Shown here: piece by piece, positions 27,191 through 46,030 of the stretch
Numbering within the stretch: the first letter of the stretch is position 1
Layout of the letters: the number at the start of each line of letters is the position of its first letter
From: Alphaproteobacteria bacterium
Lineage (GTDB): Bacteria; Pseudomonadota; Alphaproteobacteria; UBA828
DNA length: 46,741 nucleotides
Assembly (NCBI GenBank): GCA_022820945.1
Contig: JAJEEP010000082.1
Span: 1-46,741, forward strand
Reading direction: 5' to 3'
Notes under the pieces: generated by a model
Told to the model about the DNA's origin: nothing
The model's input: the letters and a program-made list of their open reading frames with translations, nothing else
Database searches by the model: none
Position numbers and translations under genes: made by a program

Positions 27191-27301
27191 TCAGCCTGAG
27201 GATACCACGACCACCGCCCCGGCCAGCAGCAGCGCGACTAGGATCCCCGCCACGGGGTAGACGACCCAGTGCCACCAGCGGGAGCGGGGCAGGAGGTTCA
27301 C
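27191..27301 (-). CDS. 36-residue single-span membrane peptide coupled to the GIY-YIG gene
   Basis: A GTG start overlaps the TGA stop of the GIY-YIG gene (GTGA), giving 36 residues: a short basic start (NLLPRSRWWHW) and one hydrophobic helix rich in Val, Ala and Leu (YPVAGILVALLLAGAVVVV), ending in SSG. The overlap, the tryptophan/arginine flank before the helix and the neat helix length argue for a real small membrane protein rather than chance. Its role is unknown; small hydrophobic peptides next to nucleases are sometimes toxins or membrane anchors, but nothing here proves that. Confidence 0.45.
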   Translation of the reverse strand: MNLLPRSRWWHWVVYPVAGILVALLLAGAVVVVSSG

Positions 27302-27909
27302 GACTCCTCCTCGTCCCGGATCACCGTCAGGGTCTTGCCCCCGTACCGCCACGAGTCCGGACCGCTCACGGACTTCCACCTCTTACCCAGGTCACGGAGC
27401 ACGATCAACGCCGCGGCGGACAACGTGGTCGGCGCGCCCCTAAACTCGATCTGCTGATCGTCGACGACCTTGCACTTCACGTTCTCGTCCCACACCGACT
27501 CGAGTTCGGTCCCCGGACCGACCCCTATCATGCTGAATTTGAAGCGGTCCCTCCGGCGCCGCGAGACCTCGAGACTGGCGCGATCATCGGCGGCGTTCTG
27601 CTCGTCGACGACGTCGCTCTGGGGGGTGACGTCCTTGGCCCCGAACCCCTCGAGGATCGCGATCGGTTGATCGGGTGAGATCCGAAAGAACTCTCGCGAC
27701 CGTCTTACTCGTCGATCCGCGAATGCCTTGAAGAGAGTGGCCTCGGCCGAGTCGGCGTCCTCGAACTCCCACGCGGCGACGCACTCGAACGGGACCGGAA
27801 TCCCGGTGGTGTCAAGGTTGCGTAACCGCTGCTCGATGGTCTGACTGGTCTTGCCGATCTTCACGAGCCCCGGCATCTCCGGGTTGGTTATGACGTACAC
27901 GATGCCCAT
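27298..27909 (-). CDS. GIY-YIG/T5orf172 domain protein with DUF4357-like C-terminus
   Basis: A 203-residue protein. The N-terminus MGIVYVITNPEMPGLVKIGK is the T5orf172 variant of the GIY-YIG fold (PF10544), continuing TIEQRLRNLDTTGIP and an Arg-rich region RRVRRSREFFRIS. A charged linker (about 100-130) leads to a C-terminal segment FRGAPTTLSAAALIVL with GGKTLTVIRDEEES at the end, matching the DUF4357 pattern (TTLSxAA, then GxxLxxIR). Such proteins are seen with phage, mobile elements and restriction systems, and the domain may be a nuclease or DNA-binding part. The start has a clean AGGAG 7 nt upstream. It heads a three-gene row with the small membrane peptide and the 86-residue protein. Confidence 0.85.
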   Translation of the reverse strand: MGIVYVITNPEMPGLVKIGKTSQTIEQRLRNLDTTGIPVPFECVAAWEFEDADSAEATLFKAFADRRVRRSREFFRISPDQPIAILEGFGAKDVTPQSDVVDEQNAADDRASLEVSRRRRDRFKFSMIGVGPGTELESVWDENVKCKVVDDQQIEFRGAPTTLSAAALIVLRDLGKRWKSVSGPDSWRYGGKTLTVIRDEEES

Positions 27910-28928: not shown

Positions 28929-29936
28929 TCATTCCGAAGCCCCGGCCAGCAGATTGACGATCAATCGGATCATGAGGTCCTTGCCGGCCGGTGCGCTTTC
29001 GGCGACCAGCAGAGTCAGTGCCGTCAACGCCTGCGGATTGAGCCCGTGTTCGATCGCCTCCTGCTTCAGGTAGAGCAGGAATAGCAGCGACCCGATGCGC
29101 TTGTTGCCGTCGGTGAAGGGATGGTCCTTGACCACGAAATACAGCAGGTGCGCCGCCTTCTCCTCGCGGCTGCGGTAGAGGGGCTCGCCGAACATGGTCT
29201 GCTCGATATTGCCCAGGATGCCGGCCAGCGCATCGCCGCGTGGACTGCCGAACAGAGGCGAGGCCTGCTCGCGCGCCATCAGCTCGCGCCGGAACTCCGC
29301 GATCGCGCTGACGGCCCGGTCGTGATCGAGCACGCCCGACGACGGCCCCGTGCCCGGCGGTTCCGGCAGCCGGTCCTCGTCGTATTCCAGCAGCAGGCGC
29401 CATGTATCGGCATAGCCCGCGATCAGGTCCAGCACCGCCTGTCCGGTATCGTCCACCAGGGCCTGGTTGCTGAGCGTCCGCGCCAGCAGGTCGAGGGTCT
29501 CCCGCGCTTCCCGCAGGCCGCGCTCGGCCAGCCGGCGCTCGTTGACGGTGAAGCCTTGCACCAGATGACCGTGCAGAGTGCGCGTGGCCCATTGGCGGAA
29601 CCGCACGCCGCGCTTGGTGTTGACGCGGTAGCCGACCGAGATGATGGCGTCCAGATTGTAGTGCTTCAGCCGGCGCCGGACCTTGCGCCTGCCTTCGGTC
29701 TGAACTACCGAGAAATCCTCGGAAGTTGCTCTCTCCTCCAGCTCGCCACTCGAATAGACGTTCCTCAGATGGAGGCCGACATTATCGGCCGTGCTGTCGA
29801 ACACTTCCGCCATCTGCCGCTGGGTCAGCCAGACCGTTTCCCGGTCGAGACGCACATCGACCCGCACCTCGCCGCCAGCGTCCTCGTACACGGCGACCTC
29901 GCCGCCGACTGCGCTCTCCGGCGTTTCGTCGTTCAT
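28929..29936 (-). CDS. RhuM-like/Fic-Doc fusion protein
   Basis: A 335-residue protein. The N-terminal half is the RhuM (virulence protein) family: VRLDRETVWLTQRQMAEVF with a helix-turn-helix-like start, LHLRNVYSSGELEE, then LKHYNLDAIISVGYRVNT and FRQWATRTLHGHLVQGFTVN. The C-terminal half is a Fic/Doc domain with the active-site loop HPFTDGNKRIG, histidine at about residue 272. The GNKR form is that of Doc-type enzymes that phosphorylate or AMPylate targets. Such fusions are common in mobile islands and are thought to act as toxins or modifiers of host proteins. A good GGAGCGGGGAACGGG leads to the ATG. The HU gene lies 84 bp upstream on the same strand. The target is unknown. Confidence 0.92.
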   Translation of the reverse strand: MNDETPESAVGGEVAVYEDAGGEVRVDVRLDRETVWLTQRQMAEVFDSTADNVGLHLRNVYSSGELEERATSEDFSVVQTEGRRKVRRRLKHYNLDAIISVGYRVNTKRGVRFRQWATRTLHGHLVQGFTVNERRLAERGLREARETLDLLARTLSNQALVDDTGQAVLDLIAGYADTWRLLLEYDEDRLPEPPGTGPSSGVLDHDRAVSAIAEFRRELMAREQASPLFGSPRGDALAGILGNIEQTMFGEPLYRSREEKAAHLLYFVVKDHPFTDGNKRIGSLLFLLYLKQEAIEHGLNPQALTALTLLVAESAPAGKDLMIRLIVNLLAGASE

Positions 29937-31002: not shown

Positions 31003-31007
31003 CTATG
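30980..31007. terminator. Strong GCAA-tetraloop hairpin at the end of the DUF3800 gene
   Basis: CATAGGGCTCGG-GCAA-CCGGGCCCTATG forms a 12-bp stem with one G-T wobble, closed by a GCAA loop as read on the plus strand. It overlaps the stop codon of the DUF3800 gene. TTTGTT follows on the plus strand, but no T-run on the minus strand, so its efficiency as a minus-strand terminator is uncertain. It may alternatively protect the 3' end of that mRNA. Confidence 0.55.
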
Positions 31008-31842
31008 TTTGTTCGTGGCCTTCCAAGCCGTCAAAGCAACTGTACTTGATCCCAAGCAGCGGCCGATCCTCGGATGACAGGACCGCGTCGATCAGGCGAC
31101 CGGCCCTCATCAAGGCAAGGTACGGCTTGTAGCCTGCATCGTACCCAGCCTTCGCCATAGGGTAGAGATAAAGATCGGCAATCTGGAGCATGGGCGTTTT
31201 CTTCGTGCGGCCTTTCGGCTCCCCAAGCACCAACTCCCTGAACTCACCAGCTTCTAGGCCACGATAGGGGGCTGCATTGTCGCCATCGAACGGCATGCCT
31301 TCCGCCTTGAGCCCCTTCATGAAAGCAACAATGTCTCGATCCTCTTGCTTGCCCGATCTTTCGAAGAACACTCGGAGCCGTCGTCCCTTCGAGCGGGCAT
31401 ACTTGGCCGATCGCTCGATCAGAATCGAGAACGCCGTCTTGTCCATGCGCCAGGGACGACCTCCATACCGTTCGGCATAGCGCGCCACGTACCCGGGACG
31501 ATGGATAATGGCTGCGATTCCCATCACCGGAAGACTGACTAGAAACTCCTCGAGCTCAGGCAAGAATTCCACCGCCCGCTCGGGATTCTTCAGCCATGAG
31601 AAATGGCCCCGACCGCCGCGAATTTCGTATGAGTGCAATGGATAAGTGATTCCCCACGCGTTACAGAATTCTCGATGGGCATCCCAAACCCGGTGCAAAT
31701 CTTCCCTGTCGATTAGCACACCGCCCAAGCCGAAGCAGTCCATACCATCATGCCTTTCCTCCGCTGGAACGTGATCTGGCTGACGACTCCCCGTATCATC
31801 GACAAACAAGTGGACTTCTTGACCCTTACGGGTTCCGTTCAT
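31003..31842 (-). CDS. DUF3800 family protein (putative RNase H-fold nuclease)
   Basis: A 279-residue protein of the DUF3800 family. The N-terminal motif VHLFVDDTGSRQ carries the paired aspartates of a likely metal site. Further conserved elements are the LHSYEIRGG histidine/glutamate, RVFFERSGKQED, and MLQIADLYLYPMAKAG near the C-terminus, where an aspartate again sits in a helix start. The fold is predicted to be RNase H-like, and family members are frequent in phage-defence islands and near restriction systems, though activity is unproven. AAAGGGAC lies just before the ATG. It follows the nurA-herA operon on the same strand after 191 bp and could be its last gene or an independent unit. 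A strong hairpin lies at its 3' end. Confidence 0.8.
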   Translation of the reverse strand: MNGTRKGQEVHLFVDDTGSRQPDHVPAEERHDGMDCFGLGGVLIDREDLHRVWDAHREFCNAWGITYPLHSYEIRGGRGHFSWLKNPERAVEFLPELEEFLVSLPVMGIAAIIHRPGYVARYAERYGGRPWRMDKTAFSILIERSAKYARSKGRRLRVFFERSGKQEDRDIVAFMKGLKAEGMPFDGDNAAPYRGLEAGEFRELVLGEPKGRTKKTPMLQIADLYLYPMAKAGYDAGYKPYLALMRAGRLIDAVLSSEDRPLLGIKYSCFDGLEGHEQT

Positions 31843-32033
31843 GTCCCTTTCGGTCCCTCATTATGACGCAGCCAGGACCCACATTCACGGCATCCTAGAG
31901 CGAGTTCGAATTACTACCCGCTCCTGACGGGAGACGGTCTCTTGTATCGGCGCAGACATTCTGTCCCACAAAGTGCGTGATACCGCAAATCGAAACCGAT
32001 GCGGTCGGCACCATCCCTACTGACTTACTTCGG

Positions 32034-33554
32034 TCAATTTTCGGGTGTCGCATCAAGTGCGTCTGCACCAGATTCGTCGACGGTGTGTCCTTCGGACATC
32101 TGTTTCAGTATTGCCTCTATCAAATCGAGCGCGGAGTCGGGAGGCAGGCTATGCACGATCGTGCCGAATGCCGATTGCACGGCCGCACGGGAGCCAGACG
32201 GTACCGTGTTGAACGCCGGCGCGGAGCCGGTGTCGAGTGCACCGAGCTCGCTTTCATAATGGGCGACTGTTTGCAGAGCAGTCTCAGGTCTTTCCCCTCG
32301 GACTTGCTCCAGAATTTGCCGGATTGCAGGAACCCGCTCCCGCTCACCTTCGATAAGAGCATCTGCATCCGCAGGGCGGAGATAGCCAGAACGGGCGAGT
32401 TCGTAGGCGGCCTTCAGCCTGTGGATGCCAGCGTCGACATTTCGCAGCTTGTTGCGTTGAGATGAGGCTTGGCGACAGCGTGAACTAATTTCCTGCGCGA
32501 TGGCGCCGATGTGATTCTCAAGGTTACGCATGTGGGGCCCGGCCTCAAAATAGTCGCGCCGGCCATTGGGAACGATGCGTCTATCCAAGATGTGGATTTC
32601 GCCGACGCACCAGCCGTTGAACCTCGGCTCCTGGAAGAGGTGCTCAAAAATACGGTCCGTACCGATCTGCATGTTTCCAACCCGTGCTCGAAGACCCCGT
32701 ATCCCTAGCCGTCGAGGAATGGAGCCGGAGTAGGGTGTGTGCGCGAGCCAGAGTATCGCCGCTGGATCCTCGCCATCGATGCGGGGAATAACGCGGGTTT
32801 CAATAGTCTCGAAAGAGGCATGAAAATCATCTGTCAGCGGAATGGCGTCCCGGAACGGTCGCTCGACCCGCTGTCGGTCGTCGTTGATACGGATGTCCAA
32901 AACCAAATGATCGGTATATCCCTCTAGGAGCTTGCCCAGCTCCGTCGAGAGCGGGAAGCTCGCCGCCAACGGCACCGGACAGACTTCTCCAAGATAGCTG
33001 CGGACCCTCTCTTCGTTGAGGAGCGTCGAGGCCGCATGGCGGTTGATCCGGTCAATGGTGACCTGGAAGAAGCGTTCCGGCCATTCGCCGCACGCGACCT
33101 GGGATGTTGTCGCGGACTCCCGGATTGCGGTTTCGGCGTCAACGAGCGCAAGGTCCAGCTCCCGCAGTGCACGCGCGTTCCAGGAAACGCGCGTGGGAGG
33201 AGAGTCCCCGCAGGTGCGAGTGGTGAAATGCAGCTCTTCAGCAAATGCGAGTCCGGACAGCCTTCCGATGCCGCGGAAGCCGCGATCGATCGACCGATCC
33301 TTGGAGCTGCGCCCAACATCGATCAACCGGCGAACGGCTTCGCCAGACGACAGGCCTGTACCGTCATCCAGAATGGTTATTCGGGAGTTCAGCGGATCGA
33401 TCGTGATCCTCACGCAACCCGCGCTTGAGCCCTGAGCCGCGATCGCATCTGCCGCGTTCTGCACATACTCCCGGTACAGAACAAGCGGGTTGTCATACAT
33501 GCCCGCGGTGACGAGACGAAGCAACTCACCGCCGAGAACGGGGGGGTCGGCCAT
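32034..33554 (-). CDS. GHKL/Hsp90-MutL-type ATPase, paralogue A of the operon
   Basis: A 506-residue ATPase. The GHKL fold starts at once: YREYVQNAADAI with catalytic E29 and Mg-binding N33, the ADP-lid motifs DDGTGL at 63-68 and GFRGIG at 92-97. A middle domain of S5-fold type follows, with GLRARVGNMQIG and WCVGEIHILDRRIVPNGRRD near 320-340, then helices and an acidic disordered tail. Such ATPases dimerise by N-terminal domain closure on ATP binding (MutL, MORC, Hsp90). It is a clear paralogue of the 35267-36835 protein but lacks that protein's long coiled coil. Its ATG overlaps the stop of the radical SAM gene by one base (TGATG), so the two are translationally coupled. It is the fifth gene of the operon. 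Confidence 0.88.
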   Translation of the reverse strand: MADPPVLGGELLRLVTAGMYDNPLVLYREYVQNAADAIAAQGSSAGCVRITIDPLNSRITILDDGTGLSSGEAVRRLIDVGRSSKDRSIDRGFRGIGRLSGLAFAEELHFTTRTCGDSPPTRVSWNARALRELDLALVDAETAIRESATTSQVACGEWPERFFQVTIDRINRHAASTLLNEERVRSYLGEVCPVPLAASFPLSTELGKLLEGYTDHLVLDIRINDDRQRVERPFRDAIPLTDDFHASFETIETRVIPRIDGEDPAAILWLAHTPYSGSIPRRLGIRGLRARVGNMQIGTDRIFEHLFQEPRFNGWCVGEIHILDRRIVPNGRRDYFEAGPHMRNLENHIGAIAQEISSRCRQASSQRNKLRNVDAGIHRLKAAYELARSGYLRPADADALIEGERERVPAIRQILEQVRGERPETALQTVAHYESELGALDTGSAPAFNTVPSGSRAAVQSAFGTIVHSLPPDSALDLIEAILKQMSEGHTVDESGADALDATPEN

Positions 33555-35194
33555 CAGGTAGCACCGGCGCTGAGGTGCTGCGCCGACATCCCATCGATAG
33601 ACAGTTCGTCAATAGCCTCAAACAGCCCCGCGTCTTCAACGGCGACATCGGATTCCGGAAGCAACTCGTCGGGGGTGAGCTCCGGGAACACCTGAGCAAT
33701 GTCGGTGACCTTGGCAGCCTTCGTATCAATGGCGTGAAAGCGAGCGAGCTCACGGATGGAAGGGTTCACGGACTTGTCGGAAACAAGCGCAAGGTACGCC
33801 TCACGGCGAGGACTCTCGAGCAGGATGTCACTCAGTCGAGCAATGAGCTCGGTTCGCTCCCCAGGCGCAAGACGCCGGTGCAGCGCCTGGTAGTCGTCAA
33901 GCATTGGCCGGCCCTCGCCGTGCTCGAAGAAGTCGCGTTGAAAGATGAAGGCGTGGGGAAGAGTCAGCAGGCGCTCGAACTCTTCGAAGCTGTTGCCGAA
34001 CGCCCTGTGGAAGAACTCGTCGCTTCCGGAAACGACGCCGTGGGTCGCCTGAAGCATGATCTGGAACGACCTGAGGTAGTAGCGGGTCCAGTGTTTGCCC
34101 ACGTGAGAGCGATCTTTCATGGTGACCGGGAGATATCGCATCGGAAACGACCAGATACGAACGCCAAGGCGCGCGTTCAGCTCGATGTTGATGCTCATGC
34201 GCTGATACAGGTCGCCCGGCGTGTCCATGAAGTTGTAAAGCATGTAGTTGGAAAGCGACCTCAGGCCGTAGTCGGCAGCCATTTCTACCGATCGCTCATA
34301 GACACCGCGCATACCCACATGGTCGAAAGCAATGCGCAGGGGATCAATGCAGACCTTGGCCATCTCGCGCAGATACATCGGGGTCTTCGCAAGGATCCGT
34401 GCATCGACCCCCTGGTTGAAATCGACGCGCCGCTTGATTGCAGGAGCTCCTTCCCGTTGAAACATCGCGCCGCGCTCAAAGCCAAGGTCTTGGATTTCGG
34501 CGATTACCTCCTGGTACCGACTACTGGCCGCGACGTTGTTGTCCATGAGTATGAGGTCCTTCTTGGGACCAAATTGCTCGTCGATGCCGGCAACAAGATT
34601 GGTGATGGGAGGCATCTCGCGCTGACCTCCTTCGAGTTTCGGGACGCCGCAGAATGCGCATTTGCGCACACAGCCGCGGGATGCGTAGCCGAAATAGGCA
34701 TCGTGGACCGGATAGCGGTACGCAACGTCTTCAAGAATGTCGTAGGCGGGAACAAGCTCCTCGATGGGCGTGCCGAGAATGTCCTGCGCACCGAAGTCGC
34801 CCTCTTCCGCTGACAACTGAAGGGAATGAGCAGGCGCTTGGTCGAGGAGCCCCCTGATAAACCGCACCCCCGCCCAGCGGGGTTCGCGGATGAAGTCGTC
34901 GAACATGAGGGACGCAGCGATCCCGCCCACAAAGACGCGCTCCGCCTGTCCGCGGGCTGCGCGCAACGCGAAATCGATAGCCGCTGCCGTTCGCCGCCAT
35001 TCGAAACTGAACAGCGTCGTCACGTACACGCGGTCCCAAACCCGCTCGAGGGCTGCAGGCGTGTCTCCCTTGACGAACAAGACGTCATCGCCGCAGCCGA
35101 GAGGGCCGTGATAAGCCGCGATTTTCATCAGGCCGAGCGGTGGATACTTGTTCCGGTAGCCGGGTTCAATGAGAAGGATGTTCTTCTTGGGCAT
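33554..35194 (-). CDS. Radical SAM enzyme with B12-binding-like N-terminal domain
   Basis: A 546-residue protein. Residues 1-150 have the Rossmann-like start NILLIEPGYRNKYPPLGLMK and VFVGGIAASL, as in cobalamin-binding radical SAM (MiaB/BchE-like) proteins, but no DxHxxG motif is visible, so B12 binding is doubtful. The radical SAM motif is CVRKCAFC (C175, C179, C182), followed by DLILMDNN and FNQGVDARILAKTP, both typical of the SAM barrel. The C-terminal 200 residues are helical and unique. It cleaves SAM to make a 5'-deoxyadenosyl radical; the substrate is unknown. ATG 35194 is preferred to GTG 35236 because the conserved strand begins four residues in. It lies between the two GHKL genes. 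Confidence 0.87.
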   Translation of the reverse strand: MPKKNILLIEPGYRNKYPPLGLMKIAAYHGPLGCGDDVLFVKGDTPAALERVWDRVYVTTLFSFEWRRTAAAIDFALRAARGQAERVFVGGIAASLMFDDFIREPRWAGVRFIRGLLDQAPAHSLQLSAEEGDFGAQDILGTPIEELVPAYDILEDVAYRYPVHDAYFGYASRGCVRKCAFCGVPKLEGGQREMPPITNLVAGIDEQFGPKKDLILMDNNVAASSRYQEVIAEIQDLGFERGAMFQREGAPAIKRRVDFNQGVDARILAKTPMYLREMAKVCIDPLRIAFDHVGMRGVYERSVEMAADYGLRSLSNYMLYNFMDTPGDLYQRMSINIELNARLGVRIWSFPMRYLPVTMKDRSHVGKHWTRYYLRSFQIMLQATHGVVSGSDEFFHRAFGNSFEEFERLLTLPHAFIFQRDFFEHGEGRPMLDDYQALHRRLAPGERTELIARLSDILLESPRREAYLALVSDKSVNPSIRELARFHAIDTKAAKVTDIAQVFPELTPDELLPESDVAVEDAGLFEAIDELSIDGMSAQHLSAGAT

Positions 35195-35266
35195 GACGAA
35201 CCTACCCGCCCCGTAACGCGGTTCTGCGGAAGGCACCCATGCCGGATGTCAGTGCGGTAGCCATTG

Positions 35267-36835
35267 TCAGCGGTTCCGGCCTCCCGGCCGCAGTGCAGCG
35301 ATGACGCGTTGCTCAATGGCGGCGAAGCGCTTTTCGTCGTCAAGCTCCTCCTTCACGACCGCCAGAACCGTGCGGACGGCTCCCCGCGCCTGCTTGTTGA
35401 GATGGGACATCGATGCATCGGCATCCGTGCGCTCAACTTTCCGGATTTCCTCCTGCAGCTCTTCCACTGCCAGAAGCGTCTCTCCGAGTTGCGTGCGCTC
35501 CTCCGCGGTTCGGTTGCGCTCCTTGATCGAGGTTTTGAGCCGCTCGGCTTCCTTATTCAGCGTCTCGATTAGCTGCGTCTTCTCGTTGTGGGACGTCAGC
35601 CCTTCTTCAAGCCGGCGTCGGGCCTTCGTGGTCGCGCGCTCCGCCCTTTGAGTGATCTTGCGCACGGAGGTGTTGCGGTCTTTGGATTCGTCGCGGATCT
35701 CCTTTTCGATACGCCGCATCTCGTCGGCGAGCTGTGCGTGAAGCCGAGAGAGTGCGTCCGAGGGCTCGAAATCGTCCCGCTGGGAATTCGGCACCAGGGC
35801 CGGGTCCACAACATGCACCTCACCGAAGCACCACATGGCCAAGGGACGAGTAGTCCAGAGCGCCTGCACGAGCGATTGGTCGCCGATCGCAATGTTGTGC
35901 ATGCGTACGCGAAGCCCTCCAAAGGGGACGTCGGCAAGAGCCCCGCTCCTTGGGTGCTGGGCAAGCCAACCCCACCAGCCCTGATAGTCGCCGTTTCTTG
36001 GTAGGGCCACGACGTCGGTGACTTCCACTCGGCGGCGCTTCTGTCCACGCCCGTCTCTGGTCGCGAATGAGTCCTTGAACGGGCGATACACTTCGCGAAG
36101 GACCGCTCCGTCCGCTCCGCGAATACGGATCGAGACAGTATCGAGGGACTCGGGATATCCGGCATTCTCGGCGAACGAACGGATTTTAGTTTGGAATTTC
36201 CAGGTCGTGGGGTCTTGGCGCACCGGCGCCGCCTGCTCTAGGTAACTCGACAAGGCCTCAACGTCGAGCAAGGCGGGGTTACTCACCTGCTCGAGAGAGA
36301 CCTGCAAAAATCTCGCATTGGAGTCAGATGATCGTTCTTCAGGCGTGCAGTTACTATTGATCGCGTCGGCAATGGTCGTGGGCGCCTGCCCCGGACGCGT
36401 CAGGCGATTGATGGCCTCCGCGTCGAACGTGACGGCGCAGGTCCGGTCGCCGCCGTCGCTGGTTTCGAAGACGAGCCGGCCGCAGTAGCTGATCCCGGCC
36501 ATGCGGCCAATCCCGCGGAAGCCAGCGTTGGCGGCTGCCGCGTCGGCAGAATCGGCCTTGTCCGAGTAACCAATGTCCACCAGCCGAACGATAGCTTCTT
36601 CCGGGCTAAGCCCCGTACCGTCGTCACGGAGCCGAAGCGATTTCGTGTGGGGATCGACAGTGACGTCGATGCAACCCTCTTCAGGGCCTAGTAGGCCTTG
36701 ACGGCGTGCGGCGCGGATGCTGTCGAATGCATTCTGGATGTACTCTCGTACGCAGTGCAGCGGCTCGCTGTACATCCCGAGAGTAATGGTTTCTAGCAGA
36801 TGGACGCCTAGTTGAGTTTCGGGGGCTTGGGGCAT
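35267..36835 (-). CDS. GHKL/Hsp90-MutL-type ATPase with C-terminal coiled coil, paralogue B
   Basis: A 522-residue ATPase. N-terminal GHKL motifs: VREYIQNAFDSI with E31 and N35, DDGTGL at 71-76 and GFRGIG at 105-110. The middle domain has GLRVRMHNIAIG and WCFGEVHVVDPALVPNSQRD, matching paralogue A step by step. Residues from about 370 to 500 form a long charged coiled coil (EKEIRDESKDRNTSVRK, then EAERLKTSIKERNRTAEE), absent from A. Its ATG is 3 nt after the herA stop. The pair A and B could form a heterodimer as MutL-alpha proteins do; this is inference from paralogy and operon position. The coiled coil would allow a second contact, for example with HerA. Confidence 0.88.
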   Translation of the reverse strand: MPQAPETQLGVHLLETITLGMYSEPLHCVREYIQNAFDSIRAARRQGLLGPEEGCIDVTVDPHTKSLRLRDDGTGLSPEEAIVRLVDIGYSDKADSADAAAANAGFRGIGRMAGISYCGRLVFETSDGGDRTCAVTFDAEAINRLTRPGQAPTTIADAINSNCTPEERSSDSNARFLQVSLEQVSNPALLDVEALSSYLEQAAPVRQDPTTWKFQTKIRSFAENAGYPESLDTVSIRIRGADGAVLREVYRPFKDSFATRDGRGQKRRRVEVTDVVALPRNGDYQGWWGWLAQHPRSGALADVPFGGLRVRMHNIAIGDQSLVQALWTTRPLAMWCFGEVHVVDPALVPNSQRDDFEPSDALSRLHAQLADEMRRIEKEIRDESKDRNTSVRKITQRAERATTKARRRLEEGLTSHNEKTQLIETLNKEAERLKTSIKERNRTAEERTQLGETLLAVEELQEEIRKVERTDADASMSHLNKQARGAVRTVLAVVKEELDDEKRFAAIEQRVIAALRPGGRNR

Positions 36836-36838
36836 GGG

Positions 36839-38515
36839 CTATCCCTGCCGATAGGCGTTGCGCGGGAAACGAAGCTTCAACGTTCCCGCGCTGAACCGTG
36901 TATGGCTCACGAGTAGCTCGCCCTTGCGGAGAAATGGGACACGCCGAGACTGCGGTCGCAGGCGAATCTCCGAGTCCTTCTGGGACTCAACAGCGGTCGT
37001 CCGACCGAAGACGTGCGTGCCGGAGTTACCGGTAACCCGGTCGTCGACGCTGGTGCGGAACTGCTCGGCCCCGAACAGGATGATGCCCTCCGAGCGGCCG
37101 CGTTCGCTGATCTCCCTGAGGTGTCCCGTCAGGGACCGGGCCCCACCGTGCTTGGGCGCGAACTTGTTCAACTCGTCTGCGAAAAGCACCACCGTGCGGG
37201 CCTCCGCACTCCTACCTTGCTCCTCGTCGTCGTCCGGCTCTGATGGCACCGGCTCTCGTAGGGCGGAGATCACGTCGCCGACCACGAATGCTTGCAGATA
37301 GTCAGGAAGTTTCGCGATATCGACGACGGCAACCTGGCCCGGCTGAAGGCGGCACAGACTGTCTGACAAGGACACCTGTCGATAGTCCTCGGCGCGTCGC
37401 GCCAACTCGGTGAAAATGCCGTTTCGAGTGCGCTGACCGAACAGGCGGAAAAACCGGCGCCAGGACACGACCGGTATCCGACTCTTGTCCGGGGTCTCCC
37501 TCGCCCAGCTGGCGACTTTGCTACGCAGCGCGCTCCATGGGTCCTCTCCGCCAACATTCTCCCTGCAATATTCGACGCAACTCACGAGCGTCTGGGCAGG
37601 GTCGTCCATGTCCTCGAAGAGTAGATGGAGACGTTCCAGGGCGTTCTCGACATCGTAGAAGTATCGATGAGCTCGCCCAGCATCGACATTAGCGGAGACC
37701 TCCTCCGCGCTCAGCATGGTCTGAACCCGGGCCGGCTCGCTGGACGAATAGGGATAGAAATACGTCACCTCGGACAACGGCTTGCATTCCAGGTCACACC
37801 TTTCCCAGTCGGCTCGGGTCTGATCGTTCAAGTCTGGATCTGATTCGTGAAGCCGAAGGAGGTCGGCGCCTTTGACATTGAGAACGACGAATGCCGGCTT
37901 CGTGCCAGCGGGCCAGTCTTCCGCCCGCTGCTGGATAGCGGACAGGATGAACATGGCGTAGGAGGTCTTCGTCGCCAGCCCTGAGACGCCAGAAATGTTG
38001 AGGTGTGCACCCTCGGGGCCCACCAGGTAATCCGCATCCATATCGACGCTGATGACGATGCTCTTGTCCTCGGGCCCGGACATGGTGATGTATCCGGCCG
38101 GTGTGTTGCGGCGGTACTCGTCGATGCCGAGCGCTCTGCGCACCCCGTCTTCGTCCGGCCAACGGACCCGGGATCCATGGGGCACGGGCATTTCGATGTC
38201 GTTCGTGTTGTACAACACAGTAGCGTCAGCATAGGTGGTGACGACGCGGCCGACGCGAGGCGACTGCGACGAGTTCCCGAAGTCGGAGGATATGAAGCCG
38301 CTCAGAGGGCTCGGTTCGTCCGAAACCTGGTGGATTTCGTCGATGATTGCATAAAAGCGGCCTATGTCGAGGTCGCCGTTCTCCGGCGGCTGCACCTGGA
38401 CGAAGTCGAATGGCTTGAGGTTGACCCCAGCGGCCAACCAGAAACGGAACGAGCCGGTTGATGTCGGATGATTCTCTGTCGCAACGACGCGACCTATCGG
38501 GGAGTCGGTGCTCAT
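36839..38515 (-). CDS. herA: HerA-like AAA/FtsK-superfamily DNA translocase
   Basis: A 558-residue HerA-type ATPase. The N-terminal 125 residues form the HAS-barrel region (SPIGRVVATENHPTSTGSFR, then FDFVQVQ). Walker A is GVSGLATKTS at about 176-185, with the Lys-Thr pair in place. VVLNVKGADLL follows, then Walker B as VVLFADELNKFAP, and the C-terminal part has HLREISERGRSEGIILFG with the arginine-finger region. Hexameric HerA pumps DNA and works with NurA in DNA-end resection in archaea. ATG 38515 is preferred; a TTG two codons upstream is possible. It follows nurA by 34 nt and is 3 nt from the next gene. The acidic insertion EPDDDEEQGRS before Walker B is unusual. Confidence 0.9.
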   Translation of the reverse strand: MSTDSPIGRVVATENHPTSTGSFRFWLAAGVNLKPFDFVQVQPPENGDLDIGRFYAIIDEIHQVSDEPSPLSGFISSDFGNSSQSPRVGRVVTTYADATVLYNTNDIEMPVPHGSRVRWPDEDGVRRALGIDEYRRNTPAGYITMSGPEDKSIVISVDMDADYLVGPEGAHLNISGVSGLATKTSYAMFILSAIQQRAEDWPAGTKPAFVVLNVKGADLLRLHESDPDLNDQTRADWERCDLECKPLSEVTYFYPYSSSEPARVQTMLSAEEVSANVDAGRAHRYFYDVENALERLHLLFEDMDDPAQTLVSCVEYCRENVGGEDPWSALRSKVASWARETPDKSRIPVVSWRRFFRLFGQRTRNGIFTELARRAEDYRQVSLSDSLCRLQPGQVAVVDIAKLPDYLQAFVVGDVISALREPVPSEPDDDEEQGRSAEARTVVLFADELNKFAPKHGGARSLTGHLREISERGRSEGIILFGAEQFRTSVDDRVTGNSGTHVFGRTTAVESQKDSEIRLRPQSRRVPFLRKGELLVSHTRFSAGTLKLRFPRNAYRQG

Positions 38516-38549
38516 TGGCAACGTTCCAAATTGGTGGACGGCGGCAGTC

Positions 38550-39644
38550 TCAGAGGCATGCTCGAATACTCCGGTCGCTGCGGAACTGTGTCTTGATGTA
38601 GCGCTCCGTCAGATGCACGGGATAGAGGTGGCTAGCCCAGCGGGCGTCTATATTGGGGGTGGCGGGAGCGCGGAGCGCGAGAACGTGTTCGCTTATCCGG
38701 TTGCACCTCGCCGCATCCATCGTGGGCGAGTCATGAGAGGGATCGTCTGGAAAGACCTCGATCTTGACCACGCCGTCTGGGTATTCGAGGCTCGCCATGC
38801 GACTTCGTCCGTGCAGCCGCAGATACCACGAGGCAATCGTAAGGTTGCGGTGAGCCGTCCCTCGGGCCGGCGTCCGGTGGCCCGCAGGAAGCCGCGAAAT
38901 CAGGGTCCCGACCCGTTCGGCGCTGCTACCGCTCTGATACGGTCGGTGCAGGTCGAAGGACTTGGCAACACCGACGACATTCCGGAAGGCCTCCTTGTGT
39001 CGGTCCATGTCGAAGTAGAATTCGATCGAACCGTCTATGAGCAGGAGCGCTTCACGAGAGATCGCGCCGGCCTTGGCCATTGAGACGATTCGGTCGACTT
39101 CCATTCTGTGCATCTTGTGGAGCACCCGCGCACGAGCGCGGTCCACCGGCGGTCTGCCATCAGTGTCATCGACCTCGTAACGATCGAACGAAAGGTCCAG
39201 CGGAAGCCGCGAATCCTTAGCGGCCTCGCAGGCGGCCGATTCAGCGTCGGCGAGGTCCTCATCGGAAAACGAGTTGGGGAAAAGGAGGATGTTGGTCGAG
39301 TCGTAGTGCTTGAGCTGGAGCCGGGAGTCCTCAAGTTCCGTGGTCGCTACACCGATCTGGGCAATAATCAGCGGAAGATAGCGATTCTTGGTATCGACCA
39401 CATAGCCAGCATTGGTAATGCGCTGGGATCCGTCGATGAAGAACCTGAACAGAAGCGGGTCGTCGGCGTCGAGCCCGGAAACCGGCAGAAATCGCCTGCC
39501 AGGCCGCGGGGTCTCCAGGAACTTGCCTCGTGGGGGCCTGGTGTCACGCTCGTCAGGGGCTCGTGAAAGGTCGACATCGTCAACGCCGGCTGGCGCGTAG
39601 CAGGTGAACTTGCCCTCCCGGAGGGCAGCGAGGATGCCGGTCAT
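38550..39644 (-). CDS. nurA: NurA-like nuclease, first gene of the operon
   Basis: A 364-residue protein with the NurA domain (RNase H-like fold). The first catalytic motif is FFIDGSQRITNAG with D71, next to PLIIAQIGVATTEL; the second acidic motif is LLLIDGSIEFY, and NVVGVAKSF fits the conserved 'GVxKs' strand. The C-terminal segment SLEYPDGVVKIEVFP and HLYPVHLTERYIKT also match the family layout. NurA is a 5'-3' exonuclease and ssDNA endonuclease that works in the HerA ring. Its ATG begins the operon; about 690 bp without a gene lie upstream, so the promoter must be there. Domain assignment is by pattern; the first Asp is clear, the remaining acids are tentative. Confidence 0.82.
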   Translation of the reverse strand: MTGILAALREGKFTCYAPAGVDDVDLSRAPDERDTRPPRGKFLETPRPGRRFLPVSGLDADDPLLFRFFIDGSQRITNAGYVVDTKNRYLPLIIAQIGVATTELEDSRLQLKHYDSTNILLFPNSFSDEDLADAESAACEAAKDSRLPLDLSFDRYEVDDTDGRPPVDRARARVLHKMHRMEVDRIVSMAKAGAISREALLLIDGSIEFYFDMDRHKEAFRNVVGVAKSFDLHRPYQSGSSAERVGTLISRLPAGHRTPARGTAHRNLTIASWYLRLHGRSRMASLEYPDGVVKIEVFPDDPSHDSPTMDAARCNRISEHVLALRAPATPNIDARWASHLYPVHLTERYIKTQFRSDRSIRACL

Positions 39645-40975: not shown

Positions 40976-40983
40976 AGCGTTCT

Positions 40984-41154
40984 CTAGACTATTGCCGGCG
41001 GAAGGATTTCGCGAATCTTAACATACATTTCACGATCTTCATTGATCTTCAAAATACCTCTGAAGCACTCGAAGGAAGATGCAGGGTGTGTAACCGATGC
41101 CCATTGGTTCACGACAGATCGCAGACATGGCTTCGTCAATTCGACGCTCAACAT
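40984..41154 (-). CDS. Possible 56-residue reading frame just before the membrane-protein gene
   Basis: The frame starts at ATG 41152-41154 and reads MLSVELTKPCLRSVVNQWAS with a basic C-terminal part (ILKINEDREMYVKIREILPP), ending 8 nt before the membrane-protein start. In the overlapping frame, 41039-41161, a GTG start gives 40 residues (VANVERRIDEAMSAICREP, then GYTPCIFLRVLQRYFEDQ). That pattern resembles a small uncharacterised family with the form 'EAMxxIxxxxxxxxGYxPxxFLxML', cut off at the end. Either the first is a real leader gene or the whole stretch is a frameshifted remnant; I cannot decide. Confidence 0.3.
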   Translation of the reverse strand: MLSVELTKPCLRSVVNQWASVTHPASSFECFRGILKINEDREMYVKIREILPPAIV

Positions 41155-41662: not shown

Positions 41663-43993
41663 CTATTCTGAACTACGACTCTGATAGTCAATATGGAGAA
41701 TGTCGCACTTCACCTCGAAGCGCTTTCTTTCATTTTCCTCAGGAAGAAAATTCGCTTGTATAGCATTTGGGATCGGTATGAAAATGCGATTCTTCATAAC
41801 AATGGTACAAGAAACGATCGACCCACCGCCAGATTGGTCGCTGATGAGTCTACGTGTCTGGAGATCATAGTACAGGCCGAACTTTTCTGAATGGTGTTGA
41901 AATATGAACAATGCCTTTTGCCCGCCCCAAACTACGGACGTGCGGTGCGGCTGCAGGAAGAAGTCTCCGTTCTCATCTCGGATACGATCTGTTATTGCAA
42001 GAAAACACTTGTAATCCTTCAGAGATGGCTCATTTGGCCCGATAGTCAACAGTTTCTTGTCGGTTTCCAAATCCAGCCGCTGGATCGGGGGCATAGGGCC
42101 GTGATCCGACCCATTCTGCTGTTCGATTGCTGACTGGTTTTCGATAACACCGGGAACCACGTCACGCATCGAACCCGCCGCCGCGGTGTCAACCACCTGA
42201 TAGCTTCGAGTCGCAACCTTGCCGGAACGCTCCGCTGCCTGCTGAAAGCTCAGCCTACCGCTCATGTAATCTTTCCAAAGCGACGTGAGGCTCTCAAGGT
42301 CCGACGCCTCATATTCGAATACCTCCCGCGTTCGATGAATGGACTTGAGAAAGGCCTCGGCACCTTGGCGCGTTGCAGTCGGTACAAGATCGGATACGCG
42401 AGGAAAGATCATGTTGCGCACAAAGTCTTTTACCATATCACTGAATGCTGAAAACTGAGTTTCATAAATTTCAAGTATTAGCCGAATGGTGTTCCCGGCT
42501 GGATCGAGGAAAAGCTCGACTGGTTTCTGTCGCTTTGTGACCAAGACCGGCAGGCCGTGAGAAATCCGGCCGAACTTGATATGCGAGTCCAGAAAGTAGT
42601 CATTCGAGAGGATTGAACCGAGTCGGAACGCCAACGCCTTTTCCGCCGCGCTGGTTTCCAGGGCCGATTTCTCTTCCAAGATACTTGGATCATCCGAGAG
42701 CTCTTCGATCCTGCAGTACATTCTGAGATACTGGAGCTCGCAATCCCGTCGAGGCGAACCGCGTGTCGGCATAATAATAGGCCGGTCCTCGGAAGCGTGT
42801 TCGACCGTCGCTCTGTCGGTGCCGGAATAGACAAGCACAGGTGCGTTTTCCGACTGACTCTTGACTTCATGTAACGGCACCGTGTCTCCAGGCTCCATAC
42901 GAACACGGAGGTTTGAACACAGATCGAAGCGCCCCCGTCCCGCAGCCCAGGCCACAAACGGGGCGCTCGCATTGCTTTCCGGTCGCTCGGCAAGATGGAG
43001 CGAGACGAATTCATCGGCTCCAGATGCCATGCGTTGCAGTACTTGCATGCTGTCCGTGGTCAGGGCTTCCCGGCCAGCAGTCGGTTGAAGGAACAGGAAA
43101 TCAGCGACCCCGCCGAATCCGTACACCGAGTTCACGCTGGCAGTCGCCAAGCCAAAGCCGCTACGAAAAGTCCGAAGGTTGCCGACACCCTGGCGCAGGA
43201 TCATGCTGCCTGCCAACTCTTGAGAGTCGACTTCGACATTTCGCAACGCAATCCGTACTTCACCGTTCACGGCTCCCATCAACTCCACGTCCGCCTTCAA
43301 GCCATTAGCTAGCTGAACACCCTGATCTTCCACAGACCAGGTCCGGTTCGCCAAGGCAGGTATCGATTCGTCAATGGGATGACCGCTAGCCTTGCTGCCG
43401 TTTACATACACGTCGATCGGCAGGAACGCCACGAACTGTGAGATGTAAGCTTGGGCCTGGTCGACATGGATGGGATGATCCGATTGCATCACCGCCGTGA
43501 CCGTGGTTCCTGGACTGCCTGTCGGAGATCGTGGCTCGAAGCTGATGCAGTCTTCGGTAACCGACAGCGTAGAGCGGAACGCTGCGCAGGCCGTGCGCTC
43601 GCTTGAGAGAACATCCTCCGTTTCGACATGCAGCTCTTCGGCAATACCGAAATTCGCCATGGCGCCGATGCCAAAGGTTCCGACAACGCCGGCCGCTCGG
43701 GCGTCCTCGGTGTTCTTGCTGCTGGAACCTGCACGCCAGAAGTGGTTGCGCAAATCCTCGCGCGACATGCCGATGCCGTTATCGGTCACGCACACGCGCC
43801 CGGCTTCAATAGTGATGTCGATACGGGGATCGAATTCCTGGCCCATGTGCCGTCTTTGCAGTATTGCATCGAAGGAGTTCTGGACGTTTTCTCGCAGCAG
43901 GGCGAAGGGTGTCGGATAGATTTGCGCCGCAAGGACTTCAATCATCCGGCTGATTTCAACAGCGAACGGAATTCGTTCGGACACTTCAGTCAT
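41663..43993 (-). CDS. Hsp90/HtpG-like ATPase paired with a phosphoesterase
   Basis: A 776-residue protein. The N-terminal GHKL domain is HtpG-like: LLRENVQNSFDAI with E35 and N39, DNGIGM at 71-76, and GTFGIGAMANF at 105-115, plus a middle domain with GVGNLRTFRSGFGLATASVN. The C-terminal 350 residues are unlike HtpG: no canonical dimerisation domain is seen, and instead there is a beta-rich tail with DFFLQPHRTSVVWGGQKALF and FGLYYDLQTRRLISDQ. It is therefore not the housekeeping chaperone. The ATG overlaps the stop of the metallophosphoesterase gene by 4 nt (ATGA), so the two are co-translated. Function is unknown; the pair may form a nucleotide- or DNA-acting sensor-effector, as an inference. 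Confidence 0.82.
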   Translation of the reverse strand: MTEVSERIPFAVEISRMIEVLAAQIYPTPFALLRENVQNSFDAILQRRHMGQEFDPRIDITIEAGRVCVTDNGIGMSREDLRNHFWRAGSSSKNTEDARAAGVVGTFGIGAMANFGIAEELHVETEDVLSSERTACAAFRSTLSVTEDCISFEPRSPTGSPGTTVTAVMQSDHPIHVDQAQAYISQFVAFLPIDVYVNGSKASGHPIDESIPALANRTWSVEDQGVQLANGLKADVELMGAVNGEVRIALRNVEVDSQELAGSMILRQGVGNLRTFRSGFGLATASVNSVYGFGGVADFLFLQPTAGREALTTDSMQVLQRMASGADEFVSLHLAERPESNASAPFVAWAAGRGRFDLCSNLRVRMEPGDTVPLHEVKSQSENAPVLVYSGTDRATVEHASEDRPIIMPTRGSPRRDCELQYLRMYCRIEELSDDPSILEEKSALETSAAEKALAFRLGSILSNDYFLDSHIKFGRISHGLPVLVTKRQKPVELFLDPAGNTIRLILEIYETQFSAFSDMVKDFVRNMIFPRVSDLVPTATRQGAEAFLKSIHRTREVFEYEASDLESLTSLWKDYMSGRLSFQQAAERSGKVATRSYQVVDTAAAGSMRDVVPGVIENQSAIEQQNGSDHGPMPPIQRLDLETDKKLLTIGPNEPSLKDYKCFLAITDRIRDENGDFFLQPHRTSVVWGGQKALFIFQHHSEKFGLYYDLQTRRLISDQSGGGSIVSCTIVMKNRIFIPIPNAIQANFLPEENERKRFEVKCDILHIDYQSRSSE

Positions 43994-45468
43994 CGTCCCA
44001 TGGCCTCCTGTGCGCGTGCCCGGCTACGGAGCTCCGACTCCTGAGATTCTGGAAGCCGCAGGTTCCGTGAATAACGGTCCAAGGCACCGATTGCGCCCTC
44101 GAAGTCACGCAAACGGCAATATGCATCGAATCGTTGCACGAGCTCCTCGATCGTGGCCGGAGGGTCCGTCGTATCCACGATCCCCTGCCAATCCCGCGCA
44201 ACCATTGCTGCTTTGAGAAAAAGCTGTCGCTGATAGCTTCCCGGCGGAAACCCGTCGAGCGATTTCAAGATCGCTATGGCCTGCGCGGCCTCGCCCGACA
44301 TCACTGCCGCCTCCGCCTCGTCAATGCGCGCGCTTATGCGCGTGGACCGCACATCGACCATCTCTCCGACGGCATTCCGCGGCCTTGTCCAACTGAGGTC
44401 GAAATAGCTGGCCCCGCCAAATTCCGACAATTGTGCCCGGGAGAACAGGTTCGCGACCGTCATCGCCCTGACGTGGCTGCGAACGCTGCCAAAATCCCCG
44501 GCTATTTCCAGCATGTTGTATTGGCGATGGGTCCCGACAGGAAGGTCGTCTGCGCCAGCGCACAACGATCCGGCGCTTATGACAGCCATTCTTTCCTGAT
44601 CGGGCAGGCGGATCTCCTGCGCTGTCGCTTGTGCCTTGTGCTGATGGCCATGTAGCCCCAGCCGGAAGCCGCGACCGATCATGCCGCGGACGACATCCGA
44701 GTCCATATAGTCGGTACGATATGGAGATCCCTCGATACTGTGATGCCAGACCGCTACCCGCAGATCGTGCACCTTCCCCGAGTCATTCAAGTCAAGATCG
44801 CTGCGGGCAATGCTCCCTTGCCGGATCATCCCATGAAAAGCAAAACAGTCATTCCCATGGCACGAATTGTAAGCGGCGACCCCTATCCGATCATCGAAAA
44901 GGCTGAAGAGGCGCACGTCGCGAGGATTTTGCACGGTCATCAATCCAGGAACACGTTCGTAGAACCTCTCGAAAAACTGCCAGAATGAGTCAAGACGCCG
45001 TTCGTAGAGACCGGGATCCGCAATGCGGTAAAGGGTACGAGTCTTCCAGTCCCATCGCAGCAGGGAATCTTCGGCATGCAGTTCGGCTCTCAGATCACCG
45101 GGAATCGCTTCGTCCGGCACCGGCGCAAGGGCGTTGAACGCCGTATTCCAATCAACATCGTGATTGCCAGGGACCATGATCAGCCGCGACCGGTCTCCTT
45201 CGAGGAACCGCTGCACCAGTTCGTCGAGAAACTCCTCCGCAACCAAATACTGTTCTTCAATCTCAGTTGCGAAGTCCTCGGTACGGAGCGGAACTCCCCG
45301 AATGAGGTCGCCGCTGACGACAATTGCTTGCGGTGCCTGGATAGAAGGCTCCTCACGAATGTACCGGTCCCTGTCGCGAACGAGCGCCGAGATCAACTCG
45401 TCGTTGGAGATTGGATCGCGCGGGGACCGATGGAGGTCCGATATGTGCATGATCGAGAAGGGTTTCAT
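43990..45468 (-). CDS. Calcineurin-like metallophosphoesterase with helical C-terminus
   Basis: A 492-residue protein with the full metallophosphoesterase motif set: ISDLH (Asp-His near residue 10), VVSGDLIRG, MVPGNHDVDWN, VWHHSIEGS and LHGHQHK. These bind two metal ions in enzymes cutting phosphodiesters or phosphomonoesters of nucleic acids, cyclic nucleotides or proteins. After the catalytic domain (to about 340) come helices of TPR-like look (ARIDEAEAAVMSGEAAQA, then FDAYCRLRDFEGAIGALDRY). ATG 45468 is chosen because the catalytic strand begins three residues in; a TTG upstream is possible. Its stop overlaps the Hsp90-like gene start, making a two-gene unit. Substrate unknown. Confidence 0.88.
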   Translation of the reverse strand: MKPFSIMHISDLHRSPRDPISNDELISALVRDRDRYIREEPSIQAPQAIVVSGDLIRGVPLRTEDFATEIEEQYLVAEEFLDELVQRFLEGDRSRLIMVPGNHDVDWNTAFNALAPVPDEAIPGDLRAELHAEDSLLRWDWKTRTLYRIADPGLYERRLDSFWQFFERFYERVPGLMTVQNPRDVRLFSLFDDRIGVAAYNSCHGNDCFAFHGMIRQGSIARSDLDLNDSGKVHDLRVAVWHHSIEGSPYRTDYMDSDVVRGMIGRGFRLGLHGHQHKAQATAQEIRLPDQERMAVISAGSLCAGADDLPVGTHRQYNMLEIAGDFGSVRSHVRAMTVANLFSRAQLSEFGGASYFDLSWTRPRNAVGEMVDVRSTRISARIDEAEAAVMSGEAAQAIAILKSLDGFPPGSYQRQLFLKAAMVARDWQGIVDTTDPPATIEELVQRFDAYCRLRDFEGAIGALDRYSRNLRLPESQESELRSRARAQEAMGR

Positions 45469-46030
45469 GGCCACGGGCCGCCTCAACCCATCTCGCCACC
45501 GCCGGCGCGCAGCGTGGCGTCTTCGGTCGACGGCACCGGTCCATTATCCCTCGTCACCCCGCGATAACCCGGGAGCCCCTGACTGGCCGCTTCGATCTTT
45601 CCAATCATACCTCGCGCCCAGTCACCCACGCCTTCGCATCAGTTCCTCGTTCACCAAGTCCCGAGTCGTCCTCTGCCAGACATACTCCATGATTGGGATC
45701 GTCTCCAGCGCTTGGCCGTCGAGGAGGGATCCCGCGGTCCCGGCGTAGGTATTCCAGTCGACGTTTCCGGCGCACAGCAGCACGTGGGCGCTGCGCTGCA
45801 TCCGCAGCGCCCTGCCCTCGCGATGCGGCTCCAACCGGGCGAAGAACGCGGCCCTCAGACGCCGCATGCCGCGACTGCTGTGCCATCCTCACGGTTCTCG
45901 AATCGCGCGCGCAAAATTCATTCTCTCGCACCCGGCCATCAGCGATCCCGCGACCTGCAGCAATCTGACTTCACGCGTCGCGCGTAGCATGCCGAGCTCC
46001 GATCCGGCACCCGGCTCCCACGGGACCTGC
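45469..46030. other. Coding debris and spacer right of the phosphoesterase gene
   Basis: No intact gene. Promoter of the phosphoesterase-Hsp90 unit expected at the left edge. Contains one protein-like minus-strand frame (45622-45867), listed separately; the remainder shows no pattern I could match. Confidence 0.4.
45622..45867 (-). pseudogene. Possible C-terminal coding remnant, unknown family
   Basis: The minus-strand frame reads RSAHVLLCAGNVDWNTYAG, then SLLDGQALETIPIMEYVWQR and a charged end TRDLVNEELMRRRG. The amino-acid balance is protein-like, whereas the overlapping frame is Arg/Pro-rich. The segment GNVDWNT recalls GNHDVDWNT of the neighbouring phosphoesterase, but the resemblance is short and the other motifs are absent. 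No start or family is evident; it is probably the end of a decayed gene. Confidence 0.3.

Follow-up and report, generated by a model that had tools for sequence, protein, structure and literature searches.

Five adjacent genes on the minus strand of an alphaproteobacterial contig (JAJEEP010000082.1, assembly GCA_022820945.1, lineage UBA828), all 46,741 nucleotides (nt) of which were analysed and are called the window here, form part of a conserved, modular gene system. Between positions 39644 and 32034 they encode, in this order, a NurA-like nuclease, a HerA-like ATPase, a GHKL ATPase (GHKL-1), a radical SAM enzyme (rSAM) and a second GHKL ATPase (GHKL-2), and comparison with relatives suggests that this operon is one variant of a modular system, so far without a name, that combines an rSAM-GHKL core with exchangeable partner modules. 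Open reading frame (ORF) calls and the sequences of the joints confirm the layout that a sequence-only reading of this DNA had described, i.e. five same-strand genes with 34 nt between NurA and HerA, 3 nt between HerA and GHKL-1, 72 nt between GHKL-1 and rSAM and a 1-nt overlap of rSAM and GHKL-2. A promoter and terminator scan of 31000-41000 gave nothing above background.

Core and partner modules

Relatives of rSAM were collected from genomes, where the best 80 of at least 479 confirmed relatives were analysed, and from viral contigs, where 115 relatives were found and 79 loci kept; ORFs were called mechanically (longest ORF) and neighbourhoods annotated by hidden Markov models. All five genes occur in the order of the window in 10 loci (the window, L011, L012, L019, L024, L028, L034, L060 of Azospirillum sp. 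TSO22-1, L078 and L184; NurA of L028 is truncated by the contig end), and NurA-HerA-GHKL-rSAM without the second GHKL in five (L009, L102, L103, L174, L175), L009 being an unverified gut contig deposited as phage. The gene order of the window hence recurs in 14 other loci, five of them without the second GHKL, and the five-gene set is not a chance assembly. Co-occurrence of the five families in one operon, as the sequence-only reading had envisaged for a five-gene system, is thereby upheld. Its fixed composition, on the other hand, had to be rejected because the same core is found with other modules and five loci do without the second GHKL, so that we see the operon of the window as one version of a modular family.

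The gene immediately after rSAM encodes a GHKL protein in 79 of the 80 genome loci (77 by threshold plus L085 and L090, whose ORF calls overlap), and in the remaining one (L068) the contig ends with rSAM. Partner labels within ~9 kb, several of which overlap, comprise NurA-HerA (8 loci), ParB-N with SNF2 (36), ParB-like only (7 more), PIN (16), large DGQHR (14) and small DGQHR (27), and in the 8 NurA-HerA loci no further module is present. Module representatives were recognised as PIN_8, as DndB/DGQHR proteins (TIGR03187 above cut-off, DpdB below cut-off), as an SNF2 helicase matching the ZorD and DpdE models and as ParB-N (below cut-off), while the large DGQHR representative has a weak Swt1-HEPN match below cut-off. 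Several of these partner modules probably cut DNA or RNA.

Partner exchange is also seen in the rSAM tree (101 rows, 14 of them NurA-HerA), where the NurA-HerA label needs 8 changes, or 7 without the rows that lack a recognised module, and where at least five label changes are forced by well-supported branches. The window rSAM, 84% identical to that of L011, forms a supported group with four others, two of its own type (L011 and L012), one of the ParB/SNF2 type (L013) and one with a large DGQHR, DndB-like protein (L014). On a very long branch, L104 (8494-11632) holds a GHKL-rSAM pair without a recognised nuclease module.

A tree of 74 GHKL rows, which sampled 36 of 95 rSAM-following ones, places these 36 on one side and the HerA-following (15) and PIN-following (21) GHKLs on the other, with a support of only 75 for the split and with PIN-linked GHKLs nested among HerA-linked ones. 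Because the tree splits the GHKLs by module, GHKL-2 is apparently a core component and GHKL-1 part of the nuclease module, the two modules meeting at the 72-nt joint. The two ATPases had been proposed to act as a pair; since they fall into separate tree classes linked to different modules, however, they probably do not form one unit.

As for distribution, a HerA profile (E<=1e-30) matches three of 398 genomes of the phylum, namely the window's own and 2 of the 397 others, both of which hold all five genes; one (G526) is the contig of L078, so that G441 alone is new. In the class, rSAM is found in 1 of 384 other genomes, and there it is partial. Searching viral contigs with the HerA profile gave five loci, in four of which (L174, L175, L176, L177) GHKL-rSAM adjoins NurA-HerA; two of these four were already known from the rSAM scan (L176 = L103, L177 = L102). 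Among plasmids, 16 records contain an rSAM relative, 12 of them nearly full-length (93-95% of the query, 55.6-57.5% identity), and the same 12 also carry GHKL relatives, with 7 of the 12 being predicted conjugative. In the six of the 12 that were examined, DGQHR-rSAM-GHKL is accompanied by a PIN-GHKL pair, a ParB/SNF2 module or both; Novosphingobium aromaticivorans plasmid pNL1 carries the PIN version, and a NurA search of the plasmids gave no match.

These plasmid records, together with ParB-N proteins in the commonest partner module, might speak for replicon maintenance or element competition of plasmids and integrative elements, with ParB-like and SNF2 proteins acting in segregation or rival exclusion. 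To our minds this is improbable, as the system is also carried by chromosome-sized contigs (e.g. L034 on OY282431.1, 3.6 Mb) and the 8 NurA-HerA loci among the 80 yielded no ParB-like gene; moreover, anti-plasmid action would itself count as defence.

Identities of the five proteins

Among the five proteins, only the GHKL domains are confidently named by Pfam, NCBIfam or PADLOC. The NurA and HerA identities given in the sequence-only reading nevertheless hold when profiles of relatives are run against the PDB. Our HerA profile (A6, 13 relatives) matches HerA chain 7f6d_B at E 4.9e-57, with profile stretches 3-257 and 395-557 aligned and the match spanning the HAS barrel and the RecA-like core, and the sole PDB match of the NurA profile (A5, 12 relatives) up to E 10 is NurA chain 7f6d_H (E 0.0031), the partner of the matched HerA in the same entry. 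We take 7f6d to be the Deinococcus radiodurans HerA-NurA complex, which fits because drHerA K175, T176 and D220 fall on same-numbered residues of the chain in the alignment. Residues named for drHerA in an excerpt of PMC9960219 are K175, T176, D220, D487 and E488. With these, HerA K185/T186 (Walker A), D220 (catalytic Asp) and D449/E450 (Walker B) align (to K175/T176, D220 and D487/E488, respectively), all being invariant in 13/13 rows, and a G[IV]SGLAxKTS P-loop is present in 13/13 HerA relatives, with a very similar one in the 7f6d chain. In NurA, E182, D204, H339 and Y341 are invariant in 12/12 rows and D71 in 11/11 rows covering that position, residues which we presume to be the catalytic set; G72 is also conserved in every row that covers it. 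At E 0.1, NurA finds no match in Pfam, NCBIfam or PADLOC and HerA none in Pfam, whose HerA_C model detects nothing in the genome that the window comes from. It is therefore likely that genes for HerA proteins with a G[IV]SGLAxKTS P-loop are under-annotated. The start of HerA may be a TTG at 38521 (560 amino acids, aa) rather than the ATG at 38515.

Distant plasmid relatives of this HerA (24-28% identity) precede SbcD- and SbcC/SMC-type genes in three annotated records (L170, L171 and L173, from cyanobacterial and Streptomyces plasmids); a fourth record (L172) comes without annotation, and matches H30 and H32 were left out. L170 and L171 also show a weak NurA match, and the arrangement in the three records resembles a bacterial HerA-NurA-Mre11-Rad50-like operon.

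Both GHKL proteins match Pfam HATPase_c_3 (GHKL-1 E 2.1e-9, GHKL-2 E 3.6e-10) and share 33% identity over 387 alignment positions, and loose Bergerat motif patterns are found in 125 of 130 GHKL ORFs. GHKL-1 also hits the NCBIfam HSP90 family protein model (E 1.4e-11, below cut-off). For GHKL-2, whose predicted model has a pLDDT of 88.3 and a pTM of 0.82, the best 50 of 430 Foldseek matches at E<=0.001 all belong to the Hsp90 family, headed by TRAP1 (5tvu, E 5.0e-15), and with alignments of 402-494 columns the protein is Hsp90-like over N-terminal and middle parts. No MORC chain is among these best 50, and the scores for the HtpG equivalogs of NCBIfam stay at 23-26 bits for PRK05218 (cut-off 371) and 44-49 bits for PRK14083 (cut-off 455). 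Of the MutL/MORC/Hsp90-type ATPases proposed earlier, the Hsp90 likeness thus stands through the fold of GHKL-2, whereas a MutL identity was rejected with 15.8 bits for GHKL-2 against an NCBIfam cut-off of 391 and no listed match for GHKL-1.

The rSAM protein matches Pfam weakly (E 0.0022, below cut-off) and PHROG 9298 at E 2e-37; together with a CX3CX2C cluster motif in 28/28 aligned rows (89/90 in a wider set) and the predicted fold, this bears out its earlier assignment as a radical SAM enzyme. The fold is predicted to be B12-type/MiaB-like, the best Foldseek matches being MiaB/RimO and the B12-type enzymes AprD4, MgmA and TsrM, from which the window enzyme differs by its helical C-terminus and by lacking second-cluster cysteines and DxHxxG. 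MiaB/RimO methylthiotransferases use three N-terminal cysteines for a second cluster. In the 28 rSAM rows, by contrast, C189, C193 and C196 are the only invariant Cys residues, and the other columns with Cys in at least five rows (296, 19/28; 283, 8/28) both lie outside the N-domain. A methylthiotransferase was hence rejected, as only the cysteines of one cluster are conserved. The Rossmann N-domain structurally matches B12 domains, with DxHxxG present in the first 180 aa of 0/28 rows; some B12 rSAM enzymes lack this motif, and AprD4 binds no B12. We place the rSAM start at ATG 35194 and not at a possible GTG (35236) because relatives such as L011 and L012 start at ATG.

Table 1. Genes of the operon and of its surroundings in the window.
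Feature	Position	Strand	Assignment	Basis
NurA-like nuclease	38550..39644	-	effector module	364 aa; match of relatives' profile to 7f6d_H
HerA-like DNA-pump ATPase	36839..38515	-	effector module	558 aa from ATG; profile match to 7f6d_B
GHKL-1, Hsp90-like ATPase	35267..36835	-	effector (nuclease-linked) class	522 aa; Pfam HATPase_c_3
rSAM enzyme	33554..35194	-	core	546 aa from ATG; B12-domain-type Rossmann N-terminus, one CX3CX2C, helical C-terminus
GHKL-2, Hsp90-like ATPase	32034..33554	-	core (rSAM-linked) class	506 aa; Pfam HATPase_c_3 and predicted fold
DUF3800 protein	31003..31842	-	possible accessory	191 nt downstream of GHKL-2; Pfam DUF3800 E 5.4e-7
Fic-like protein	28929..29936	-	neighbour, PADLOC candidate PDC-S23	PADLOC E 6.7e-117; NCBIfam DOC_P1 E 1.5e-5, below cut-off
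GIY-YIG/T5orf172 protein	27298..27909	-	neighbour, PADLOC candidate PDC-S57	Pfam E 3.4e-15; PADLOC E 4.4e-67
Third Hsp90-like ATPase	41663..43993	-	neighbour outside the system	776 aa; HATPase_c_3 E 4.9e-11; NCBIfam HSP90 E 5.9e-26, below cut-off
Calcineurin-like phosphoesterase	43990..45486	-	neighbour	Metallophos E 5.8e-10; EAD8 E 0.008, below cut-off; DS9_1_antiphage (NCBIfam) E 9.2e-15, below cut-off

Defence-gene neighbourhood and proposed function

Consistent with the enrichment in defence islands that the sequence-only reading had led us to look for, the 93 ORFs that flank the NurA-HerA loci (13 out of 15, L009 and L078 being omitted) match 86 PADLOC models (E<=1e-10; counts are of models, not genes). 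In a control of 10 stretches, 8 from the window's genome and 2 from G441, 73 ORFs match 4 models, i.e. mad3 (5 members), mad8 (2), RTasRmuC (1) and caspase (1). Matched in both sets, mad3 has 2 flank and 5 control members, and the flank sets contain some antisense ORFs, one of which displaced the Fic ORF of the window. Among 25 listed of the 86 flank models are LmuA/B/C, PtuA, AriA and several PDC candidates, the first three of which we take, going by the model names, to stand for Lamassu, Septu and PARIS. Judging from position and size, the Lamassu matches would be L011:13283-16728 and L176:3125-6388; per Pfam, L011:15610-16728 is an ABC-3C protein with an Mrr-like domain. Plasmid L005 has a patatin and DncV-like gene pair within ~10 kb. 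The GIY-YIG, Fic and DUF3800 genes, seen as typical of a defence region in the sequence-only reading, are all present (Table 1).

From this gene company, a defence role of some kind appears quite probable. Our preferred reading is more tentative and, in our estimate, falls a little short of an even chance: the operon may represent, in its NurA-HerA form, a modular system against invaders that has a self-marking core and a DNA-degrading effector. HerA-NurA pumps and resects DNA, as is established for the family in Deinococcus and archaea. The core would consist of the B12-domain-type rSAM and its dedicated Hsp90-like ATPase, the effector of HerA, NurA and the second Hsp90-like ATPase. In a first step, host DNA or nucleotides would be labelled as self through a modification made by the rSAM of the core, whose Hsp90-like partner would use ATP to work as a clamp, loading the enzyme onto its substrate or maturing it there. 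Next, the Hsp90-like ATPase of the effector may clamp or sense unmarked DNA (or an infection state) and license HerA, which would then pump the duplex into NurA for degradation. Elsewhere among bacteria, this core occurs together with ParB-like and SNF2 proteins as one module, with a PIN nuclease and its GHKL, or with DndB-like proteins. This keeps much of the mechanism offered by the sequence-only reading (ATPases that sense or clamp, an rSAM that makes a modification or molecule, NurA/HerA that degrade), which we find plausible.

Hints on whether the mark sits on DNA come from partners and viral relatives; we hold a DNA-marking version of defence to be possible at distinctly less than even chances. 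In 71 viral rSAM loci (L099-L169), the clusters found within five genes, each identified by one representative (Pfam), include a ParB-N6/N4 methyltransferase fusion (11 loci), a PAPS-reductase-like cluster (9 loci, immediately upstream in 7 of them) and a C5 methyltransferase (8 loci), and a further cluster of 5 resembles a C5 methyltransferase by eye. Both the viral neighbours and the DndB/DpdB-like partners speak somewhat for a modification of DNA or nucleotides, and MiaB, a base-modifying enzyme, shares the fold of rSAM. Carried to its full extent, this would amount to restriction-modification-like immunity in which rSAM and its Hsp90-like partner write a new mark on host DNA, exchangeable effectors destroy or silence unmarked invaders under a second Hsp90-like ATPase, and phages carry a related rSAM to mark their own DNA, a scenario that we regard as possible, though as a whole well below even chances. 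Taken for itself, the viral PHROG 9298-type rSAM that recurs near PAPS-reductase-like, ParB-methyltransferase and C5-methyltransferase genes could belong to a phage DNA-modification set.

The rSAM fold does not point to DNA, because its relatives also act on proteins (MgmA, RimO) and on small molecules (AprD4, TsrM, CysS). Defence may be exerted without DNA marking: on infection, rSAM would make a small-molecule signal or antiviral nucleotide, or would modify a protein (for instance the nuclease, or the Hsp90-like protein that accompanies rSAM), and would so switch on the exchangeable nuclease modules. We consider this a real possibility, though again below even chances. The fold relatives are in line with it, as are the defence-gene flanks and the combination of one core with very different partners (PIN_8 nuclease, DndB-like with weak HEPN), which is typical of a signalling core; yet DndB/DpdB-like and ParB-like partners and the viral DNA-modification neighbours lean to DNA, and Pfam, PADLOC and NCBIfam detected no signal-binding domain in the proteins of the NurA-HerA version.

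Could the operon rather serve DNA repair or end resection, acquired with the island, the ATPases helping rSAM to mend damaged bases or nucleotides? An excerpt of PMC9960219 describes a Deinococcus resection complex made of this kind of HerA and NurA, and the three annotated plasmid records in which distant HerA relatives (24-28%) sit with SbcD and SbcC/SMC genes fit such a view. It is nonetheless unlikely, given the sporadic distribution (rSAM in 1/384 class genomes, partial; HerA in 2/397 of the phylum), the exchange of partners and the defence flanks.

Several observations also weigh against the self-marking reading that we prefer. Recognised partner modules are absent from 8 of the 80 loci, DndB-like proteins occur in none of the 8 NurA-HerA loci of 80, and the NurA-HerA version has no recognisable subunit for sequence specificity. 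L178 has NurA-HerA without GHKL or rSAM, and Marinitoga camini virus 1 (L007, 8019-11845) has NurA-HerA with a convergent rSAM and no GHKL found in the stretch. Viral rSAM relatives from L107 on are ~23-36% identical and may do something else. Fold matches are moderate, with TM-scores to the model of 0.44-0.48 for GHKL-2 and 0.36-0.43 for rSAM (first nine rows), and, as said, the rSAM fold is common to protein-acting and small-molecule enzymes. The rSAM tree was made by a quick method and has long branches (L101, L104, L174, L175 and others), and host phyla are unsure because many loci come from metagenome-assembled genomes.

If the self-marking reading is true, it would define a new immune family over many bacterial lineages (by record titles) whose core chemistry, with rSAM and an Hsp90-like ATPase of its own, is not shared by any named system that we found, and in which core and effector are cleanly exchanged. 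HerA-NurA, known as a repair machine, would gain a defence role, the function of the phage rSAM family PHROG 9298 would become testable, and a possible new DNA mark is predicted that should be detectable by mass spectrometry in cultured hosts.

Named systems and island neighbours

No named system with this gene content was found in NCBIfam, PADLOC (2023) or open-licence PMC papers, within which scope the same statement of the sequence-only reading holds. PADLOC-DB 2.0.0 (2023) has no good model for the five proteins, as NurA and rSAM lack a match and the others reach best E values of 0.00027-0.011. In excerpts of PMC10853773, PMC12839542 and PMC4158269, HerA, DndB or radical SAM occur separately. 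As the literature covered was open-licence PMC and the PADLOC version that of 2023, a description elsewhere is possible; none of the named systems tested has an rSAM-Hsp90-like core.

Dpd and Dnd/Ssp come close in that sister versions hold DndB/DpdB-like DGQHR proteins and a ZorD/DpdE-matching SNF2 helicase, and in that both combine a core with exchangeable parts; the putative writer here, in contrast, is a radical SAM enzyme. Membership in either was rejected, since neither a Dpd nor a Dnd/Ssp model is among the PADLOC results for the five window proteins, and the DGQHR proteins of L003, a sister version, stay at 42 and 56 bits, with the DpdB cut-off at 300. A GHKL ATPase coupled to a nuclease, as seen here, is also known from VcSduA (a Shedu protein with a GHKL domain), where, by an excerpt of PMC12137116, changes in the GHKL or nuclease site abolished anti-phage activity, and from BbrUII/HgiDII-type restriction enzymes (weak NCBIfam match). 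Unlike these, the window has separate genes, Hsp90-like N-terminal and middle parts, a HerA-NurA nuclease and a second, rSAM-linked GHKL class. With the HerA-NurA of Deinococcus and archaea (7f6d; excerpt of PMC9960219), the window pair shares families, ATPase residues, P-loop type and gene adjacency, but it shares its operon with rSAM and two Hsp90-like ATPases and is found in defence islands. Sir2-HerA and DUF4297-HerA, which reportedly are defence systems, likewise join a HerA-family ATPase to an effector; here, however, the effector is NurA, rSAM and Hsp90-like proteins are partners, and the best PDB match is a NurA-partner HerA. Prokaryotic viperins are another case of a radical SAM enzyme in an antiviral setting, whereas the window rSAM has a B12-domain-type N-terminus, a MiaB/AprD4/TsrM-like fold and an adjoining Hsp90-like ATPase in 79/80 loci.

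Of the island genes listed in Table 1, DUF3800 is also found near the system in L012 and L175 (Pfam, three loci tested including the window). The calcineurin-like phosphoesterase gene overlaps that of the 776-aa ATPase by 4 nt, and the two (41663-45486), which the sequence-only reading does not name, are perhaps a separate two-gene defence candidate of the island.

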